A DNA stretch of 64,000 nt from Halarcobacter mediterraneus (GTDB taxonomy: Bacteria; Campylobacterota; Campylobacteria; Campylobacterales; Arcobacteraceae), in contig NZ_NXIE01000002.1 of the NCBI RefSeq assembly GCF_004116625.1, forward strand, positions 124,001-188,000. Direction: 5' to 3'. Positions 1-8,075 of the stretch are shown here, one piece after another. The notes beneath the pieces are model-generated. The model was not told the origin of the DNA. It made no database searches and saw nothing but the letters and a program-made list of their open reading frames with translations. Numbering within the stretch: the stretch's first letter is position 1; every line of letters begins with the position of its first letter. The translations under genes and the position numbers were made by a program.

Positions 1-2778
1 AGAATCTGCATTTTCTAAAGTGATAACACCAACAGAACCTACAACATCAATATAAATACCAGTCTTTGCACTTGGTTCACCTTCATTTGCAACAATTACT
101 TTTGTTCCTTCTTCATTAAAAGTAACCATATCAGGTAAATATCCCACTTGTGTTTGAGAAATCAAAGAACCATTTGTATCAAATACAACTACTTTTCCTT
201 TTTCTTCTACTTTATTTGAAGAACCAATAGCAACTGCAACTTTTGATTTTTTTACTGCAACACTTTGTACGCCAGCTCCATAAGGAGACAAATCAATTGA
301 ATTTACAGTTCCTAAACTCATTTCATCATTATTATATGTTATTGGTGTAATATCTAAAGTATTATCAGCACCATTTGTAGTAAACATTTTTTTAGAATCT
401 TTATCAAAGGCTACTATTTCAGTTCCACCTTCTTTTTGAGTTTTATATGTAGCTATTTTTGTAATAGAACTAATTGATGTTGAATCACTTACTTGCGTTA
501 AATTTTTAAAAGGTCCCACATAACCAAAAGCTGATTCTCCACCATCAGTTGATTCAAGACTTGGATGTTGAGTTACTACTCCTAGATATCCATATCCATC
601 TTTTAAATCTGCGTACCAAAATGGAGATGTAGTCTCTGCTCCTAATGGAGTTGTAAATGTTCTAGTTAATTCTTTTGTTTTAATATTATATGCCCATACA
701 ACATTGTTTTTGTGACTTCCAGTATCTTCTCCTATAATCAAAGTATTTGAGTTTTCTAAAAATGAAACATTATCAGGATTAGAGATTCCATTTACATCAC
801 AAGTATTACCTGCATAAATAGAGTCATCAGAATAAGTCATTTCTGTACCTTGTAAAATAGAATACATATTTTTTACTACATAATCAGAGTTGATATCTTT
901 ACCCGAAGAATCAGAAGTATCAGTACTTATATCAAGTCCATAAACAGCTCCACATTTATTTGCTTCAACTCGAATATGATTAGGTCCACCTTCATCATTT
1001 GAACTGTTATCTTCCATACCTTTTCTTACTTCACTCATTGCAACATATAATGTTCCTGAGTTTTTATCAAAAGTAATTCCTTCTTCTTTTCTAAATTCTG
1101 TTGTTGCACCTTTCATTGCAGCATATCTTCTTACTTCTAGTCTTGAGGCAGCTTTTTCCATACCTTCTTTTATTTTTAAACACTCTTGCCCTATTCCATT
1201 TGCAGATATTGAAGTATAGCCTGTAGCACACTCACCATTTGTTGGAGCAACTTCATCAAAGATATCTGTAAACTTCGGTGCATCATTTGTTGCAATATTT
1301 CCATCAGGGTCTATTATATTTCTAATCTCATCATTTGTGGCATGACCTAAATTTACCCATTCAAGATCTGCTGTTCCTGTTCCCACTCCATTTTCCGATG
1401 TTTGATTCCATTTTGCTGCATAAAGTGTTCCTGCTGTTAAATCCTCTTCTTTATCAGCAACAAACATAAATAAACCAACATTTGTACCATCATCACTCAT
1501 ATAAACAGTTCTTTTATCAGGCATTACATAAGATAATTCATGGGAAAATCTTCCCATAGAATAGTGTTTACTATAAACTGGTTTACCATTTTCTATTTTA
1601 ACTTCTGGTGTCCATCCATAGTAATATGATGAAATTTTGCTTGCATCACCTTTCCAAAACTTTGTAAGAACATCATCATAATAACCATCTCCTACTAATC
1701 CAGTTTCAGGGTTTGCCCCTGCTTCTACTTGCTTAGTATCTGGTTCATACTCTTCTGAACTTAAATGAGAATTCCAAGGAGTTTTTTGTCCAGCACAATG
1801 AACCCATCCTCCAAATTCATCTTTTTGAGATACATATTGTAAAGTATTTGCTTTTGGTGTTAATTTTCCTGTTGAAGAATCTTGTTCTAACTCTAGCATA
1901 TAATATGAACCTAAAGCACACTCATATTGAGAAATAACATAAAGTTTTCCATCTACATTATGTAAAGAAGTAAAGTCCATTCCTGAACCTTGACCATCAT
2001 TTGTTCCATTACAAATATATGGACTTCCATCATCAAAAGTAATTAAATTATCTTGATAATCTTTTGATTGTCCTAAAATCTCACCATTATCAGAATAACC
2101 TGTTCTCATAATTGTAGTATATGCTATTGATTGTTCTTGTCCATTTACATATACTTTTTTTGATGCTTGCTGTGTTAGTTTTTCTTCATCAGTTATGGGA
2201 GTAGCTATTTCTTCAAAACTAACTGAAACTTTTTTTGCAAATTTTGAAGCAACACTATATCTTATTGAATCAATTTTTTCTAATAAAGCTTCATCATTTA
2301 ATGAAGTTCTTAAGGAATCAATTGACTTAAAAGATAAAGCATTAGAAGCACTACCTTTTATGTCATCTGGTAATTCAAATACTTCTGGTAAGCTATTAAC
2401 ATCATATGATTGTCCCGTTTTTAAAGACATTTTTGCAATTAAATATGTTGCTAATGCCTCACTAGAAATATTTTCATTTTGATTAGCAATTTCATCTATT
2501 GTAATATTTGAGCTAGCACTTGATGATAAACTTACTCCTCCAATTTCAAAGGTACAGGTATTACCATCTTTATAAGTAAACTCTCCATTATTATTTGTTA
2601 TTCCTGTATTATTACCACACATATATTCTACATTGGCAAGATAAGGATTTAACTGTAATGTTCCTGTACTAGTTGTAGTAGTATTATCATCAGATGATGA
2701 AGAACTACTTCCACAGCCACTAAAGGTAAATGTCGCTAATAAAGCACATAAACTTATACTCAAATATGTTTTTTTCAT
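1..2778 (-). CDS. phoX: PhoX-type (DUF839) phosphatase lipoprotein, 3' end outside window
   Basis: The reading frame is open for 926 codons from ATG 2778 to the window edge, so the C-terminus is missing. The N-terminus is a lipoprotein signal with lipobox F-S-G-C (Cys22) followed by a Ser-rich linker, so the protein is probably membrane anchored. The middle carries DUF839/PhoX hallmarks: a CAG-x-x-TPW-x-S-x-x-SSEE block near residues 325-340 and a later GEDTGSHKNN-type block. The last ~190 visible residues resemble the choice-of-anchor I beta-propeller found in some alkaline phosphatases (VVVFD..., VANEGEPS). PhoX enzymes are Ca/Fe-dependent phosphatases that release phosphate from organic esters. 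Most known PhoX are Tat exported; a Sec lipoprotein form is less usual. The AAGAGGA ribosome site supports the start. Confidence 0.8.
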   Translation of the reverse strand, partial: MKKTYLSISLCALLATFTFSGCGSSSSSSDDNTTTTSTGTLQLNPYLANVEYMCGNNTGITNNNGEFTYKDGNTCTFEIGGVSLSSSASSNITIDEIANQNENISSEALATYLIAKMSLKTGQSYDVNSLPEVFELPDDIKGSASNALSFKSIDSLRTSLNDEALLEKIDSIRYSVASKFAKKVSVSFEEIATPITDEEKLTQQASKKVYVNGQEQSIAYTTIMRTGYSDNGEILGQSKDYQDNLITFDDGSPYICNGTNDGQGSGMDFTSLHNVDGKLYVISQYECALGSYYMLELEQDSSTGKLTPKANTLQYVSQKDEFGGWVHCAGQKTPWNSHLSSEEYEPDTKQVEAGANPETGLVGDGYYDDVLTKFWKGDASKISSYYYGWTPEVKIENGKPVYSKHYSMGRFSHELSYVMPDKRTVYMSDDGTNVGLFMFVADKEEDLTAGTLYAAKWNQTSENGVGTGTADLEWVNLGHATNDEIRNIIDPDGNIATNDAPKFTDIFDEVAPTNGECATGYTSISANGIGQECLKIKEGMEKAASRLEVRRYAAMKGATTEFRKEEGITFDKNSGTLYVAMSEVRKGMEDNSSNDEGGPNHIRVEANKCGAVYGLDISTDTSDSSGKDINSDYVVKNMYSILQGTEMTYSDDSIYAGNTCDVNGISNPDNVSFLENSNTLIIGEDTGSHKNNVVWAYNIKTKELTRTFTTPLGAETTSPFWYADLKDGYGYLGVVTQHPSLESTDGGESAFGYVGPFKNLTQVSDSTSISSITKIATYKTQKEGGTEIVAFDKDSKKMFTTNGADNTLDITPITYNNDEMSLGTVNSIDLSPYGAGVQSVAVKKSKVAVAIGSSNKVEEKGKVVVFDTNGSLISQTQVGYLPDMVTFNEEGTKVIVANEGEPSAKTGIYIDVVGSVGVITLENADS

Positions 2779-2869
2779 TTATTTGTTCCTCTTAAATTAA
2801 TATATCCATTTTATTGTTGACCAACCAACAAAAACGAATTATAAAAATAAAGAGTTACAAACTAATAAC

Positions 2870-2875
2870 ATTATA
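2870..2875 (-). promoter_or_regulatory. Candidate -10 box of the phoX-like gene
   Basis: The minus strand reads TTTTATAAT about 90 bases upstream of the phosphatase start, in a 190-base non-coding gap. No Pho-type direct repeat was convincing here. The call rests on the hexamer only. Confidence 0.35.
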
Positions 2876-2968: not shown

Positions 2969-3280
2969 TTATTCAAATATTTTCACATAAATATGTTCAG
3001 GAATTTTTCTTAAAAAGAATTCTAATTTTTTTGGTTCTTCTTTTACTTTTACTTTGATAGATTTTTTAAGAAAAGGGAACCTTTTGACAAGAATCTCTTT
3101 TTCATCTTTATCTAATAATTTAATATTATAAAGTCCACATTTATTTCTACTATTACTAGAACATTTAATTTCAGCTATCTTTGTATTTTTATCATAAGAT
3201 ACTTCTAAATCAATTGTATAACTAACTGGATGTGCTATTGCACATAAAGACAAAACTGTACCTATTAATATTTTTTTCAT
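2969..3280 (-). CDS. Small exported protein, last gene of the cytochrome/NicO operon
   Basis: 103 residues with a Sec signal peptide ending in A-I-A, so cleavage would leave a mature protein starting His-Pro. The rest is Lys- and beta-strand-rich with two Cys near residues 40 and 48. No family recognised. Its start overlaps the stop of the DUF1007 gene by 4 bases, so it is probably translationally coupled to it. The free N-terminal His invites comparison with CopC-like metal sites, but this is inference. A role in the same metal-related export or assembly process as its operon partners is likely. Confidence 0.65.
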   Translation of the reverse strand: MKKILIGTVLSLCAIAHPVSYTIDLEVSYDKNTKIAEIKCSSNSRNKCGLYNIKLLDKDEKEILVKRFPFLKKSIKVKVKEEPKKLEFFLRKIPEHIYVKIFE

Positions 3281-3762
3281 TTATAAACTCCTACACAATA
3301 ATCATATTCACTCTTTTGTATTTCTGTATTAAAACTTGATTTAAGTTCTTCTAATCTGTAAGCCATATAAATTTTTTCATCAATAAGACAAATTGTTGTT
3401 TCTTTTAATAACTTATGATTAATATCAAAGATTATTTGAACTTTTTTATTTTCAAAAACTATATTTGAGTTTTCTGGTTTAATAAGATATTCACCTTCTT
3501 CATCAGCTAAAAAAATATTATAATTATTGCTTTTTAATTTTTTAAAATGAGTTTTTATAAACTCTTTCTTTTCATTTTCTTCAAATTTATTATTTCTATT
3601 TCTATCAAATTCAAACATTAGTATTCTGGAGTTTAATCTATCAAACTTCCAGATATTTCTTATACTATCTTCTTTTATCTCAAGTTTGGAATCTAAGAAA
3701 TAGTGAGGATGACAAAAAGCCAAAGAGTTCATCACTAATATACTTAAGAATATATTTTTCAT
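3277..3762 (-). CDS. DUF1007 family periplasmic protein
   Basis: 161 residues with a signal peptide ending near Phe-Cys and a mature start of H-P-H-Y-F-L-D, matching the HPHxWxD opening of DUF1007 proteins. An EF-hand-like loop (D-R-N-R-N-N-K-F-E) follows near residues 53-62, a position where DUF1007 members often carry one. DUF1007 proteins are periplasmic and regularly encoded beside NicO/RcnA-type permeases, as here, where the permease gene overlaps by 4 bases. They are thought to act in transition-metal handling; the metal is not shown by sequence. Short for the family (often ~200 residues). Confidence 0.75.
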   Translation of the reverse strand: MKNIFLSILVMNSLAFCHPHYFLDSKLEIKEDSIRNIWKFDRLNSRILMFEFDRNRNNKFEENEKKEFIKTHFKKLKSNNYNIFLADEEGEYLIKPENSNIVFENKKVQIIFDINHKLLKETTICLIDEKIYMAYRLEELKSSFNTEIQKSEYDYCVGVYK

Positions 3763-4490
3763 ACTAATAATAAAATTCCTAAAATCAATAATAAAAATAT
3801 TCCTACATAAGAAGCTTTATACATTAAAGAACTTATGTTTTTATATTTTGTTTTTTTTACTTGTGTAGATAAAATTGCTGCTAATGAAATAGTTATCCCC
3901 ATTCCTATACTCATAGCTATTGCACTTAAAACACCTAAATTTATATATCCTAAAATTATAGAAAATAATACAATCGACATAACTCCAGGACAAGGAACTA
4001 TTCCTATTGACATTGAAACAGCTAGAAGACTTTTATTACCTACTCTTTCTTCTTTTTCTTTTACATTTCTATCTTTAAAGGTATCATATAATAAATATAA
4101 AGCAATACTAATAATAAAAATTGCAGAGACTTTATACATATTCATATTTATTTGCTCAAAATAACTTGTAATTGTTGATTCAAAAAATAAATACAAAATA
4201 GCTGTAATCACTAAAGCTGAAATTGTATGAATTACAGAAGTTAAAAATCCTGCTTTAAAAGCTTCTTTTGACTTTGCTCCTTTTACAAGGAAATAACTTG
4301 CAATAACCATTTTCCCATGTCCTGGACCTAAAGCATGAATTAAACCATAAAGAAAAGAAACCAATAAAATATATAAAAACATTGAAGAATCACCACTATC
4401 TAATTTATCAAAAGAATCTGTGATTATTAGATTTATTTTTTGCTGTGTTCCTATTACAAAATTTAGAAAAGTATTTGATAATTCTGTCAT
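3759..4490 (-). CDS. NicO/RcnA-type nickel/cobalt transporter family permease
   Basis: 243 residues with about six membrane helices. The first core helix carries H-A-L-G-P-G-H-G-K (residues ~53-61), the metal-binding signature of the NicO/RcnA family (HALxPGHxK), and a later GIVPCPG segment matches the second conserved helix. Family members move Ni, Co or possibly other cations across the inner membrane; direction cannot be read from sequence. Unlike E. coli RcnA there is no His-rich loop, which argues against a simple Ni/Co efflux pump. The ATG overlaps the stop of the cytochrome gene (ATGA), indicating coupling. Confidence 0.8.
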   Translation of the reverse strand: MTELSNTFLNFVIGTQQKINLIITDSFDKLDSGDSSMFLYILLVSFLYGLIHALGPGHGKMVIASYFLVKGAKSKEAFKAGFLTSVIHTISALVITAILYLFFESTITSYFEQINMNMYKVSAIFIISIALYLLYDTFKDRNVKEKEERVGNKSLLAVSMSIGIVPCPGVMSIVLFSIILGYINLGVLSAIAMSIGMGITISLAAILSTQVKKTKYKNISSLMYKASYVGIFLLLILGILLLV

Positions 4491-6238
4491 TTTAATACCT
4501 TTTCTAAATTTGTCATTGTGCCTCTTTTTAATTCCTTATGAACATTCTTAGCTTTTTTAATAATTGGGTCTCGTCCATAAATATAACTTTGTTCATCTAC
4601 AATCACTTTATATGCTTTATTAAGTTTAAGTGCTCTTTGTTTAGAAGGTAAAATCAAATATGAAATATCATTTTTTATCTTTTCTAATTCTTCAAGTTTA
4701 AATTTCCACTCTTGCTTTAAATCAATCTTAGGATTTTCTAATTTTGAAATTAAATCCTTTCTGATATTTTCTTCATCTTTTTGCCAATTTACTTTAAAAA
4801 ATTTCTTTTCAATTTCATCATTTGATCGAAACTCATCCCCTGCACTATTTTCTTTTAAATATCTTACATATTCACTTTGCCCATTTGGTAAAAGTTTATC
4901 AACTATATTTTCAAAGCCTTTTTGACTCCAATGGTACCAACCTTGTGCATGGGTATTTTTTTCAAACTTTCTTTGGAATACAAAAGTGGAATCTGCTACT
5001 GCACCAATATTACTATGGCAACCTATACAAAATAAAGTTTCTTCATAACTTTGAGGTCTTAAATCACCACTTTTATCCTCTATAAAGCCTTGATAAAACC
5101 AACCTCTTTTATTATTTACTCCTATTTCCATATTTCCATTAAAAATGTCCACTCTATCTGGATAATCATGTTTTGCTTTTATTTCTTCTAAGCCTAAGTT
5201 ACTTAACTGAGAATAATTGTTCCATGACTTTTTAACTGCATATCTTAACTCTTTTAATCTTTTAGACATAATTATTTTATTGTTTTTATCAATATCAATA
5301 TATCTTACAGAATGTATAAACTCTGTTCCTTTTGGATAAAGTCCAGGTGCAATTAAAATATCATTATTTATTAATTGTTTTCTTGCAAATCCCACATAAC
5401 TCATAGTAAAATTTGATATCTTTTTTGTTTTTATATCAAAACTTGGTTTTTGCCATTTAAATACAATTTTTGAAGCTTTATCCAATTTACCATTTTGATT
5501 TAAATCTACAGAATATTTTCTTTCATCTATTTGAGATATTTCTATTGTTTTTTGTTTAATTAAACTTTCAACAATTGATAAATTTAATTTATAAACTTCT
5601 AAGTCAAAATTTCCTTGTTCATCTTCTTGAAATATTTTAGGAAGTCTAATTAAAACATCGTCTGTACTTCCATTTGTAGGCCAAAATGTACCTAAGAAAG
5701 GATAATATGCAAAAGCTCTCCAACCTGTATATTCTCCATTTTTATCCTTATCAAAGCCTTCTTTATCAAAATTAAAATATAAATCAGGAATGTAACCATC
5801 CCATTTACCATTTTCATTAAAGTCCCAATCTTTTGAAAGTTTTACTAACTTATTTTTTAAAATAATGTTCCCTTCTTTGTCAAGATAATTATCTTTTCTA
5901 ATATAATTTAGAATTTCTTCATCACTAATTTTTTCAATTTGTCTTGTTCTATCTTTAAATAAATTAGTCCAAGGATTTTTAAAAGCTGCGGCAGGGAAAT
6001 CATAAGCTTCTTGTAAATCTGCATCTCGTAAAGTAAAATTTGGTTCTTTATTTTGAGTATGGCAAGTATAACAGGGATTATGTAAGATATTTTCATCTAT
6101 ATCACTTACTGTTTTTGTATAGCACTGACTAGGGATATATGCTGTTTCATTATAAAGTTTCTTACTTTTTATATCCATAGAAAACAAGCTACTACAGGCA
6201 AGAATATTAAAAAAAATATATAATTTTGTTTTATTCAT
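4487..6238 (-). CDS. Exported di-heme c-type cytochrome with EF-hand-like loops
   Basis: 583 residues with a hydrophobic N-terminal export signal. Two heme c sites are visible: CYTCH at residues 56-60 and CIGCH at 404-408. Between them lie four Asp/Asn-rich loops resembling EF-hand calcium loops (around 138-148, 158-170, 245-254 and 315-321, for example D-F-N-E-N-G-K-W-D). The protein should be periplasmic or membrane attached and carry electrons, but the partner is unknown. It is first in a four-gene operon with a NicO permease and DUF1007 protein, an unusual pairing of a cytochrome with metal transport. I do not recognise a named family. Confidence 0.75.
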   Translation of the reverse strand: MNKTKLYIFFNILACSSLFSMDIKSKKLYNETAYIPSQCYTKTVSDIDENILHNPCYTCHTQNKEPNFTLRDADLQEAYDFPAAAFKNPWTNLFKDRTRQIEKISDEEILNYIRKDNYLDKEGNIILKNKLVKLSKDWDFNENGKWDGYIPDLYFNFDKEGFDKDKNGEYTGWRAFAYYPFLGTFWPTNGSTDDVLIRLPKIFQEDEQGNFDLEVYKLNLSIVESLIKQKTIEISQIDERKYSVDLNQNGKLDKASKIVFKWQKPSFDIKTKKISNFTMSYVGFARKQLINNDILIAPGLYPKGTEFIHSVRYIDIDKNNKIIMSKRLKELRYAVKKSWNNYSQLSNLGLEEIKAKHDYPDRVDIFNGNMEIGVNNKRGWFYQGFIEDKSGDLRPQSYEETLFCIGCHSNIGAVADSTFVFQRKFEKNTHAQGWYHWSQKGFENIVDKLLPNGQSEYVRYLKENSAGDEFRSNDEIEKKFFKVNWQKDEENIRKDLISKLENPKIDLKQEWKFKLEELEKIKNDISYLILPSKQRALKLNKAYKVIVDEQSYIYGRDPIIKKAKNVHKELKRGTMTNLEKVLK

Positions 6239-6362
6239 TTTTTCTCTTTTTTAGCTAGATTAATTTGAGATTTTACTTTGAAATAATTACAAGTTGATAA
6301 CAAAAACTCTGTAACTATTTTGTAATAAATATTTCTTAAAATTTTAGATTCAAGGAGTATAA

Positions 6363-8075
6363 ATGATAGATGTTCAAAAAGAGATAGCAAAGAAGTTTCC
6401 AAATATAAATAAAAACCCAAATTTCTTAAGAAAATCTTTAATTAACATTGCTAAAAAAGTAGTACATGAAAACTCAATAAATGAGTTTTTAACAAAACAT
6501 TCTCACTTAAAAGGTTTTGAATTTGTTGATGCAGTATTAGATTATTTTAATTTTGACTATACAGTATCAAGTAATGATATTCAGAATATTCCTAGTTCAG
6601 GAAAAGTAGTGATTATTGCAAATCATCCTTTAGGTGGATTAGATGCACTTTCTTTATTAAAGTTAGTATCAACAGTAAGAACTGATGTAAAAATTGTTGC
6701 AAATGATTTTCTAGTTGGTATTGAAGCCTTAAAATCTTTATTTATCCCTATAGATAATTATAAAATGAGACAATCAAAGAAAGATATTCAAGCAGTTTAT
6801 GAAGCCTTAAACAATGAAGAAGCAATTATTATTTTCCCAGCAGGAGAAGTAAGCCGAGCGAGTGCAAAAGGAATTAAAGATCCAGTATGGAATAAAGGAT
6901 TTTTAAATTTTGCACTTAATACAAATGCTCCTATTTTACCAATATTTATTGGTGGTAAAAATTCAAAAACATTTTATACTATGTCTGTAATCAATAAAAC
7001 TTTCTCAACACTTTTATTATCCCATGAAATGTTTAAGAAAAAAGCAACAAATATAAATATTAAAATTGGGGAAATAATTCCAAATGAAAATATTAAACCA
7101 AAAGGTTTAGAAAAAAAGTATTTAGTGAATTTATACAAAAAACATTTATATGCATTAAAAAAAGGTAAAAAATCTTTCTTTGAAACTCAAAAAGCAATTG
7201 CACATCCTCAAAAAAGAGATGATTTAATAAAAGAGTTAAAAAAATCTAAACTTATTGGAGAAACAAAAGATGGTAAAAAAATCTTTCTTTATGATTATGA
7301 AGAAGACTCAATTGTATTAAAAGAGTTAGGAAGATTAAGAGAGTTATCTTTTAGAAAAGTTGGAGAAGGAATAAATAAAAAAAGAGATACAGATAAATAC
7401 GATATCTATTATCAGCATATTATTTTATGGGATGAAAATGATTTAGAAATTGTAGGTTCTTATAGAATTGGAAATGGTAAGTTTATAAATGAGCATTTAG
7501 GAGTAAAAGGCTTTTACTCTAATTCTTTATTTAAATACAAAAATAGTTTTACACCATATTTAAATGATTCTATTGAATTAGGAAGAAGCTTTGTTCAACC
7601 AAAATACTGGGGGACTAGAGCTTTAGACTATCTTTGGTATGGAATTGGTGCTTATTTAAAAAATCATCCTGAGATTAAATATATGTTCGGACCTGTATCT
7701 ATTTCAGGGAGTTTCCCTAGTGCGGCAAAAGATTTGATAATTTTCTACTATTCTCACTATTTTTCTTCTAAAGAACAAATGATTGAAGCAAAAATCCCAT
7801 ATCAATACTCTTCTCATATTCAAGACTTAAAAGAGATATTTAACTCAAATGACAAAAAAGAAGACTTTAAAACCTTAAAATCAACTCTAAATAATATAAA
7901 CACAGCAGTACCAACACTATTTAAACAATATGCTGATATATGTGAAGAAGGTGGAGTAAAGTTTTTAAGCTTTAATGTGGACCCAAACTTTTCAAATTGT
8001 GTTGATGGGTTTATTCTTGTAGATGTAAATAAAATAAAAAATAGTGCTAGAAAAAGATATATAGATAAAGATTAA
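6363..8075 (+). CDS. olsF: OlsF-like bifunctional acyltransferase (PlsC domain + GNAT domain)
   Basis: 570 residues in two parts. Residues ~70-260 are a lysophospholipid acyltransferase domain with N-H-P-L-G-G-L-D (His88, Asp94) and F-P-A-G-E-V-S-R (158-165). Residues ~300-540 match the OlsB-type N-acyltransferase fold (GELGRSF-like segment near 400, MFGPVSISG near 440). Such fusions (OlsF of Serratia and Flavobacterium) make ornithine lipids in two steps: N-acylation by the C-terminal half and O-acylation by the N-terminal half. Products are phosphorus-free membrane lipids. Start ATG 6363 has AAGGAG 6 bases upstream. Transcribed divergently from the cytochrome operon. The amino-acid headgroup (ornithine versus glycine or lysine) cannot be told from sequence. 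Confidence 0.82.
   Translation: MIDVQKEIAKKFPNINKNPNFLRKSLINIAKKVVHENSINEFLTKHSHLKGFEFVDAVLDYFNFDYTVSSNDIQNIPSSGKVVIIANHPLGGLDALSLLKLVSTVRTDVKIVANDFLVGIEALKSLFIPIDNYKMRQSKKDIQAVYEALNNEEAIIIFPAGEVSRASAKGIKDPVWNKGFLNFALNTNAPILPIFIGGKNSKTFYTMSVINKTFSTLLLSHEMFKKKATNINIKIGEIIPNENIKPKGLEKKYLVNLYKKHLYALKKGKKSFFETQKAIAHPQKRDDLIKELKKSKLIGETKDGKKIFLYDYEEDSIVLKELGRLRELSFRKVGEGINKKRDTDKYDIYYQHIILWDENDLEIVGSYRIGNGKFINEHLGVKGFYSNSLFKYKNSFTPYLNDSIELGRSFVQPKYWGTRALDYLWYGIGAYLKNHPEIKYMFGPVSISGSFPSAAKDLIIFYYSHYFSSKEQMIEAKIPYQYSSHIQDLKEIFNSNDKKEDFKTLKSTLNNINTAVPTLFKQYADICEEGGVKFLSFNVDPNFSNCVDGFILVDVNKIKNSARKRYIDKD

Follow-up and report, generated by a model that had tools for sequence, protein, structure and literature searches.

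The window analysed here is a 64,000-nucleotide stretch of Halarcobacter mediterraneus DNA (contig NZ_NXIE01000002.1, positions 124,001 to 188,000), and near its left end lies a gene for a di-haem c-type cytochrome whose regular neighbour, here and in several other phyla, is a gene for a PhoX-like phosphatase. Our genome comparisons make a strong case that the two proteins are partners. We also propose, at roughly even chances, that the cluster is a phosphate-starvation operon in which the P460-type cytochrome acts as a dedicated exported partner of the adjacent PhoX-like Fe/Ca phosphatase, maturing it or poising its redox state. This proposal draws on what the genomes show directly: which genes are present, how they are linked and co-occur, their type of export signal, the conserved ligands and a promoter motif. 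The genes concerned are the following, in window coordinates except for the last.

4487..6238, minus strand: di-haem cytochrome, 583 residues, with two CXXCH motifs (residues 56-60 and 404-408), the second haem in a predicted P460/c'-beta-like domain
3759..4490, minus strand: NicO-family membrane transporter, 243 residues (PF03824, 1.8e-16)
3277..3762, minus strand: DUF1007 protein, 161 residues (PF06226, 1.5e-15), with a signal-like N terminus, then HPH
2969..3280, minus strand: 103-residue protein of no known family, with a signal-like N terminus, then a conserved HPV, and two conserved cysteines
1..2778, minus strand: 5' part of a 1260-residue lipoprotein gene with a PhoX domain (PF05787, 7.7e-20, above cut-off) and a choice-of-anchor I domain (PF22494, 5.6e-80)
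L073:17178-18977, left of the window, same strand as the PhoX-like gene and directly after it: 599-residue lipoprotein with 5'-nucleotidase domains

A sequence-only reading of this DNA had described the first four of these genes as an operon, and in its description of them it was sound: an open reading frame check returned all four products at these lengths, ATGA-type overlaps are present at all three junctions, and the Pfam matches bear out the NicO and DUF1007 identities. The unit does not end with those four genes, however, as the PhoX-like gene starts after a gap of 190 bases, extends 1004 bases beyond the left window edge and is itself followed by the 5'-nucleotidase gene.

Linkage of the cytochrome to PhoX

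We searched 150 genomes of relatives, that of H. mediterraneus included, and found the cytochrome in 22 of them, in 25 copies, the surroundings of all of which were inspected (genomes and loci carry our G and L numbers). Using a profile built from ten neighbouring genes, we detected a PhoX-like gene within about 4 kb of 23 of the 25 copies. A scan of named genomes added 21 cytochrome loci, several from metagenome-assembled genomes, under titles that include Campylobacterales, Gammaproteobacteria, Methylocystaceae, Rhodobacteraceae, Leptospiraceae, Sulfurihydrogenibium and Magnetocorallium, and a PhoX-like gene lies in the flank of 18; two of the remaining three (L054 and L064) meet a contig end on one side. 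PF05787 was matched in 20 of the 21 named genomes, and the last (G156/L057) has a PhoX cut by a contig end and seen as a profile match. The PhoX of L055 and both genes of L051 were recovered by six-frame search. Gene order is not fixed: PhoX lies upstream of the cytochrome, downstream of it or divergent from it, in several phyla.

Co-occurrence follows the same pattern. In a separate sample of 244 genomes, from the order to which G160 (the genome with L061) belongs, 30 carry the cytochrome and 149 carry PF05787, and all 30 are among the 149; one of the 30, G277, holds a cytochrome fragment only, together with a classical PhoX. The matches listed there include 17 weak PhoX places at 97-138 bits: 15 have a cytochrome within 2.5 kb, and the genomes that contain the other two, G330 and G265, lack a cytochrome. 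A strong classical PhoX match (E < 1e-120) was found in eight of the 150 relatives, none of which has the cytochrome, and the sole PF05787 match in the H. mediterraneus genome is the gene downstream of it. Cytochrome and PhoX distances are correlated (r 0.80 over 39 loci, 0.69 over 21), a figure in which co-evolution is not separable from shared descent. Two loci, L044 and L045, have phytase-like lipoproteins near the cytochrome-PhoX pair, and in L044 we also saw a choice-of-anchor I fusion and 5'-nucleotidases. A literature search, with most subscription journals outside its reach, gave no P460-type PhoX partner among the matches listed.

The sequence-only reading had placed the cytochrome in a metal-transport operon, from which one would look for it beside NicO and DUF1007 in most relatives. 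We did not see this. NicO adjoins 9 of the 25 cytochrome copies and is missing at the other 16, and a tblastn search (E 1e-3) found no relative of NicO, DUF1007 or the 103-residue protein flanking any of the 21 named loci; the constant partner is the PhoX-like phosphatase instead. What survives is the link in the reverse direction. The window-type NicO occurs in eight other genomes at 59-79% identity and stands beside the cytochrome in all nine; no further copy turned up in the 150 genomes, where other NicO matches reach at most 46% identity and many have a DUF1007 match adjacent or in the same frame. The 103-residue protein is found in exactly the same nine genomes, all of which carry this cytochrome, and its gene belongs to the cluster in eight; in G052 it is on another contig, and there the cytochrome/NicO cluster sits at a contig end. 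Because this NicO type and the 103-residue protein are restricted to nine genomes, and neither they nor DUF1007 were found at the named loci, we regard the cytochrome and PhoX as the core, to which NicO was added, and the module looks like a lineage-specific accessory.

An adjacent NicO and DUF1007 pair is also what we take ZevB/ZevA of Haemophilus influenzae to be, and the present pair shares that arrangement; compared with the other NicO-DUF1007 pairs and fusions of relatives, it differs in that its NicO subtype is exclusive to the cytochrome cluster. Our literature search, with the reach given above, found nothing on the NicO-DUF1007 combination; DUF1007 by itself gave four papers, and for ZevAB a single, unrelated paper was listed. 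The H. mediterraneus genome has a second NicO (G000:C6:66700-68037, L076), a 514-residue frame that also matches DUF1007, and such frames are frequent in relatives. Cleavage behind the signal-like Ala or Cys would leave both the DUF1007 and the 103-residue proteins (window 2969-3762, minus strand) with His-Pro at their N termini, which are possibly metal-binding. No Pfam or NCBIfam model matched the 103-residue protein at E<=1.

Export signal, metal site and haem domain

PhoX is known as a Tat (twin-arginine translocation) substrate (PMC4148689, PMC4223295); in Campylobacter jejuni its export depends on TatA1 (PMC4148689). Its iron is described as having thiolate ligation, and the authors speculate that Tat export lets PhoD and PhoX receive iron in the cytoplasm (PMC4223295). 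We typed export signals by motif scan, not with a signal-peptide predictor. All six classical PhoX inspected from the eight strong-match genomes have a twin-arginine motif, whereas the PhoX-like protein downstream of our cytochrome has no RR motif and does have a lipobox. The same holds for its branch: among 43 divergent PhoX frames longer than 400 residues (a set that omits L051, L055 and the cut L057), an RR motif occurs in one, L088_3, which is outside the cytochrome loci, and the lipobox pattern in 36. Tat is evidently in use in H. mediterraneus, because its PhoD begins with a twin-arginine motif.

The downstream protein shares with classical PhoX (PF05787; PDB 3zwu, 4amf) a domain match of 72 bits against a cut-off of 24, and it keeps the aligned Cys and Glu that we take to be the iron ligands of Pseudomonas fluorescens PhoX, C179 and E273, in a PDB alignment that covers the surrounding residues. 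The cysteine is present in all 37 PhoX sequences from cytochrome loci, ours included, and in all six classical ones. Six Sec-type PhoX come from outside cytochrome loci: four keep the cysteine, namely L084 and L085, from genomes that carry the cytochrome at another place, and L086 (G110) and L088 (G126), while L087 and L089, Sec-type PhoX-like proteins of G111 and G126, genomes without the cytochrome, have Gln in its place. The PhoX-like protein would have an Fe/Ca cofactor and phosphomonoesterase activity. Its branch differs from classical PhoX at many fixed positions and is often fused to a choice_anch_I domain, in addition to being paired with the cytochrome. Two extra cysteines (residues 434 and 487 in L042) are present in 43/43 Sec-type PhoX and 0/6 classical ones, and a disulfide would be the simple guess.

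Both CXXCH motifs of the cytochrome are invariant in Cys and His across all 43 aligned sequences, in agreement with its earlier description as di-haem. That description had also given it four calcium-like loops, which is only partly borne out: a scan with a loop pattern picked out two stretches, at residues 139 and 245; in the ten of the 43 family rows that were inspected, the loop at 245 is kept throughout and that at 139 is absent from three gammaproteobacterial rows. Sequence searches gave a sub-threshold match to PF16694, cytochrome P460 (23.6 bits against a cut-off of 27, E 7.2e-5, residues 375-420 only), and no Pfam match at E<=1 to PF03150, the family of MauG and di-haem cytochrome c peroxidase. 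Against the PDB, the sequence found nothing below E 0.05, its only matches being designed proteins, and the profile found nothing at E 10.

Predicted structural models had predicted local distance difference test (pLDDT) scores of 71.8 for the full-length cytochrome, which is weak over residues 9-93 and 553-583, and 81.8 for residues 97-440; the N-terminal haem region and the C terminus have no fold assignment. When the central-domain model was searched with VIA-align, P460 and c'-beta proteins took all of the first 17 rows (Z 7.5 to 4.4, the next row at 3.1), led by 6hiu at Z 7.5 with a root-mean-square deviation of 3.6 over 137 aligned residues. With Foldseek the first 12 rows were of the same group, none under E 0.001. 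The model shows the P460/c'-beta beta-sheet fold with a CXXCH near the domain end, as in PDB 6hiu and 7ead. We conclude that the cytochrome is P460/c'-beta-like as judged from predicted structure, a fold likeness (Z < 8, no Foldseek E < 0.001) and not proven PF16694 membership. It differs from those proteins in its length of 583 residues, its additional N-terminal CXXCH and its score below the Pfam cut-off. In cytochrome P460 a lysine is crosslinked to the haem, and the alignment of our family contains an invariant lysine, K329. Several members of the family have lipoprotein-like N termini, like their PhoX partners.

PHO-box-like promoters

From about 12 sequences upstream of these same genes we derived the pattern TGTTAY-NA-NNN-TGTAAY-N10-TANAAT, the first part of which we take to be a PHO box. 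Sites in the window, with the divergent gene that follows one of them, are:

6270..6302, minus strand: PHO-box-like site and -10 element before the cytochrome gene; exact match, although this site partly defined the pattern
2838..2870, minus strand: PHO-box-like site and -10 element before the PhoX-like gene; exact match, although this site too partly defined the pattern
6310..6342, plus strand: PHO-box-like site with one mismatch, before the divergent acyltransferase gene
6363..8075, plus strand: divergent gene with an acyltransferase domain (PF19576, 1.2e-31) and a GNAT domain (PF13444, 2.6e-24)

The H. mediterraneus genome contains eight sites with at most one mismatch, and seven of them precede phosphate-linked genes or this cluster. 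Those other than the cytochrome and PhoX sites precede genes for an Na/Pi cotransporter, a PPK2 polyphosphate kinase, a permease that we read as PstC, a calcineurin-type phosphoesterase, the divergent acyltransferase and a ferredoxin. The site before the ferredoxin gene (L095, G000:C3:88822-88854) is an exact copy of the pattern and has a peroxiredoxin gene on its other side. Two-mismatch sites include the PhoD promoter and an opposite-strand site near a PHO4 transporter.

In other genomes, the phytase-like and 5'-nucleotidase genes of L044 and L045 have PHO-box-like sites with zero or one mismatch. Upstream regions of the cytochrome itself (n = 24) are divided: seven contain an exact site, 16 differ from the pattern at five or more positions, and in many of these 16 the cytochrome follows PhoX. 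The background was gauged from 304 other upstream regions: 16 contain a site with at most two mismatches, and several of these 16 belong to phytase-like, 5'-nucleotidase or divergent acyltransferase genes. We infer from the motif that PhoB would control the cytochrome-PhoX cluster.

Possible roles of the cytochrome

Our favoured explanation starts from the difference in export. Classical PhoX is exported folded via Tat, and its iron is proposed to enter beforehand in the cytoplasm; the branch linked to the cytochrome is mostly a Sec-type lipoprotein, and because it has no Tat signal and yet retains the iron-ligand cysteine, an iron-thiolate/calcium centre would need to be assembled outside the cytoplasm. 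The cytochrome, presumably in physical contact with the phosphatase, could perform the redox step of that assembly, by oxidizing bound Fe(II) to Fe(III) or by an oxidative modification of the protein, and it may also hold the centre ferric. One lineage, which includes H. mediterraneus, would then have gained NicO, DUF1007 and the 103-residue protein, most simply for metal delivery to the centre. In its most specific form, with the cytochrome as the cofactor-maturation enzyme that builds the Fe(III)-thiolate/Ca centre of a Sec-exported PhoX in place of cytoplasmic loading and Tat, and the three accessory proteins as a dedicated metal supply, we put this proposal forward tentatively, at somewhat less than even chances.

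The nearest known system is that of Flavobacterium, which we compared by description only. A PhoX-like lipoprotein there is reported in an operon with a MauG-like c-type cytochrome in all Flavobacterium genomes; expressed alone in P. putida it was inactive, and its deletion lowered inducible phosphatase activity (PMC8812569). The pair Fjoh_2478/Fjoh_2477 is raised under phosphate depletion, with the partner filed under PF03150 (PMC8115612), and the authors suggest that PhoX depends on the haem protein in order to function. Both systems pair a divergent PhoX lipoprotein with a c-type cytochrome; ours has no match to PF03150, which would make it a second haem partner, of different build, for this kind of phosphatase, and the text accessible to us on the Flavobacterium system mentions no NicO/DUF1007 module. 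If our maturation proposal is correct, haem redox proteins would have been recruited twice, independently, to the same task. It could also explain the apparent inactivity of a PhoX-like lipoprotein expressed alone, and the pair offers a widespread two-gene system for asking whether a haem protein builds or poises an Fe/Ca centre without Tat export.

Several observations weigh against this explanation. It is based on sequence and genome comparison, and co-occurrence indicates a partnership but not a reaction. The pairing has exceptions: no PhoX lies near the second cytochrome copy of G005 (L035), G007 keeps its cytochrome (L040) apart from a PhoX located elsewhere in the genome, and L068 is a miss among the 21 named loci. 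Some cytochromes could serve another redox role. Conversely, no cytochrome was detected in G110 (8% contamination) or G126 (82% complete), each of which has a Sec-type PhoX that keeps the cysteine. The exact promoter matches of the cytochrome and PhoX genes are partly circular, as the pattern was drawn from them; less circular are the other sites of the H. mediterraneus genome and three classical PhoX genes with one mismatch. A reversed pattern used as a control gave 8 matches at up to two mismatches against 14 for the pattern itself, so lone two-mismatch sites mean little. As for the Flavobacterium protein, its authors also offer poor expression as a cause of the inactivity (PMC8812569).

Five other explanations were weighed against the same evidence. 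That regulation alone is shared, with two independent phosphate-starvation genes remaining neighbours by chance, would suit the several loci where each gene has its own PHO-box-like promoter and the few in which cytochrome and PhoX are apart, but not the adjacency in several phyla with differing gene orders, nor the finding that the cytochrome is almost never present in genomes whose only PhoX is classical; we think it unlikely. The resemblance of the central domain to cytochrome c'-beta and P460 brings up a role in protection or sensing, in which the cytochrome would bind nitric oxide or another small oxidant as c'-beta does and merely accompany phosphate starvation. This is distinctly unlikely in our view, as it leaves the cross-phylum link to one PhoX branch and the second invariant haem motif unexplained. 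The earlier idea of a metal-transport operon, in which NicO would move a metal that the cytochrome has first oxidized or reduced, has in its favour the translational overlaps and a NicO subtype confined to the side of the cytochrome. With NicO so often missing, PhoX nearly constant and the promoter motif pointing to phosphate, it is no longer the simplest reading, and we consider it improbable.

Two further possibilities concern the phosphatase directly. The cytochrome might only anchor or stabilize PhoX at the membrane, its redox chemistry unused, as the lipoprotein-like N termini found on several cytochromes and on PhoX partners would allow; docking has no need of two haem motifs, and these are invariant, which makes this very improbable. 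Alternatively, the two proteins could oxidize phosphite or phosphonate, with the haems accepting the electrons. The many positions at which the branch differs from classical PhoX and the phosphate-starvation promoter would agree with such oxidative phosphorus release, but the iron-ligand residues of PhoX are retained and the Flavobacterium counterpart is reported to contribute to phosphomonoesterase activity (PMC8812569), and we rate it as highly improbable.

With regard to the wider neighbourhood, the acyltransferase and GNAT architecture of the divergent gene at 6363..8075 recalls, on our assumption, the ornithine-lipid synthase OlsF, which makes a phosphate-free membrane lipid. An OlsF-like role for this gene would fit phosphate starvation.

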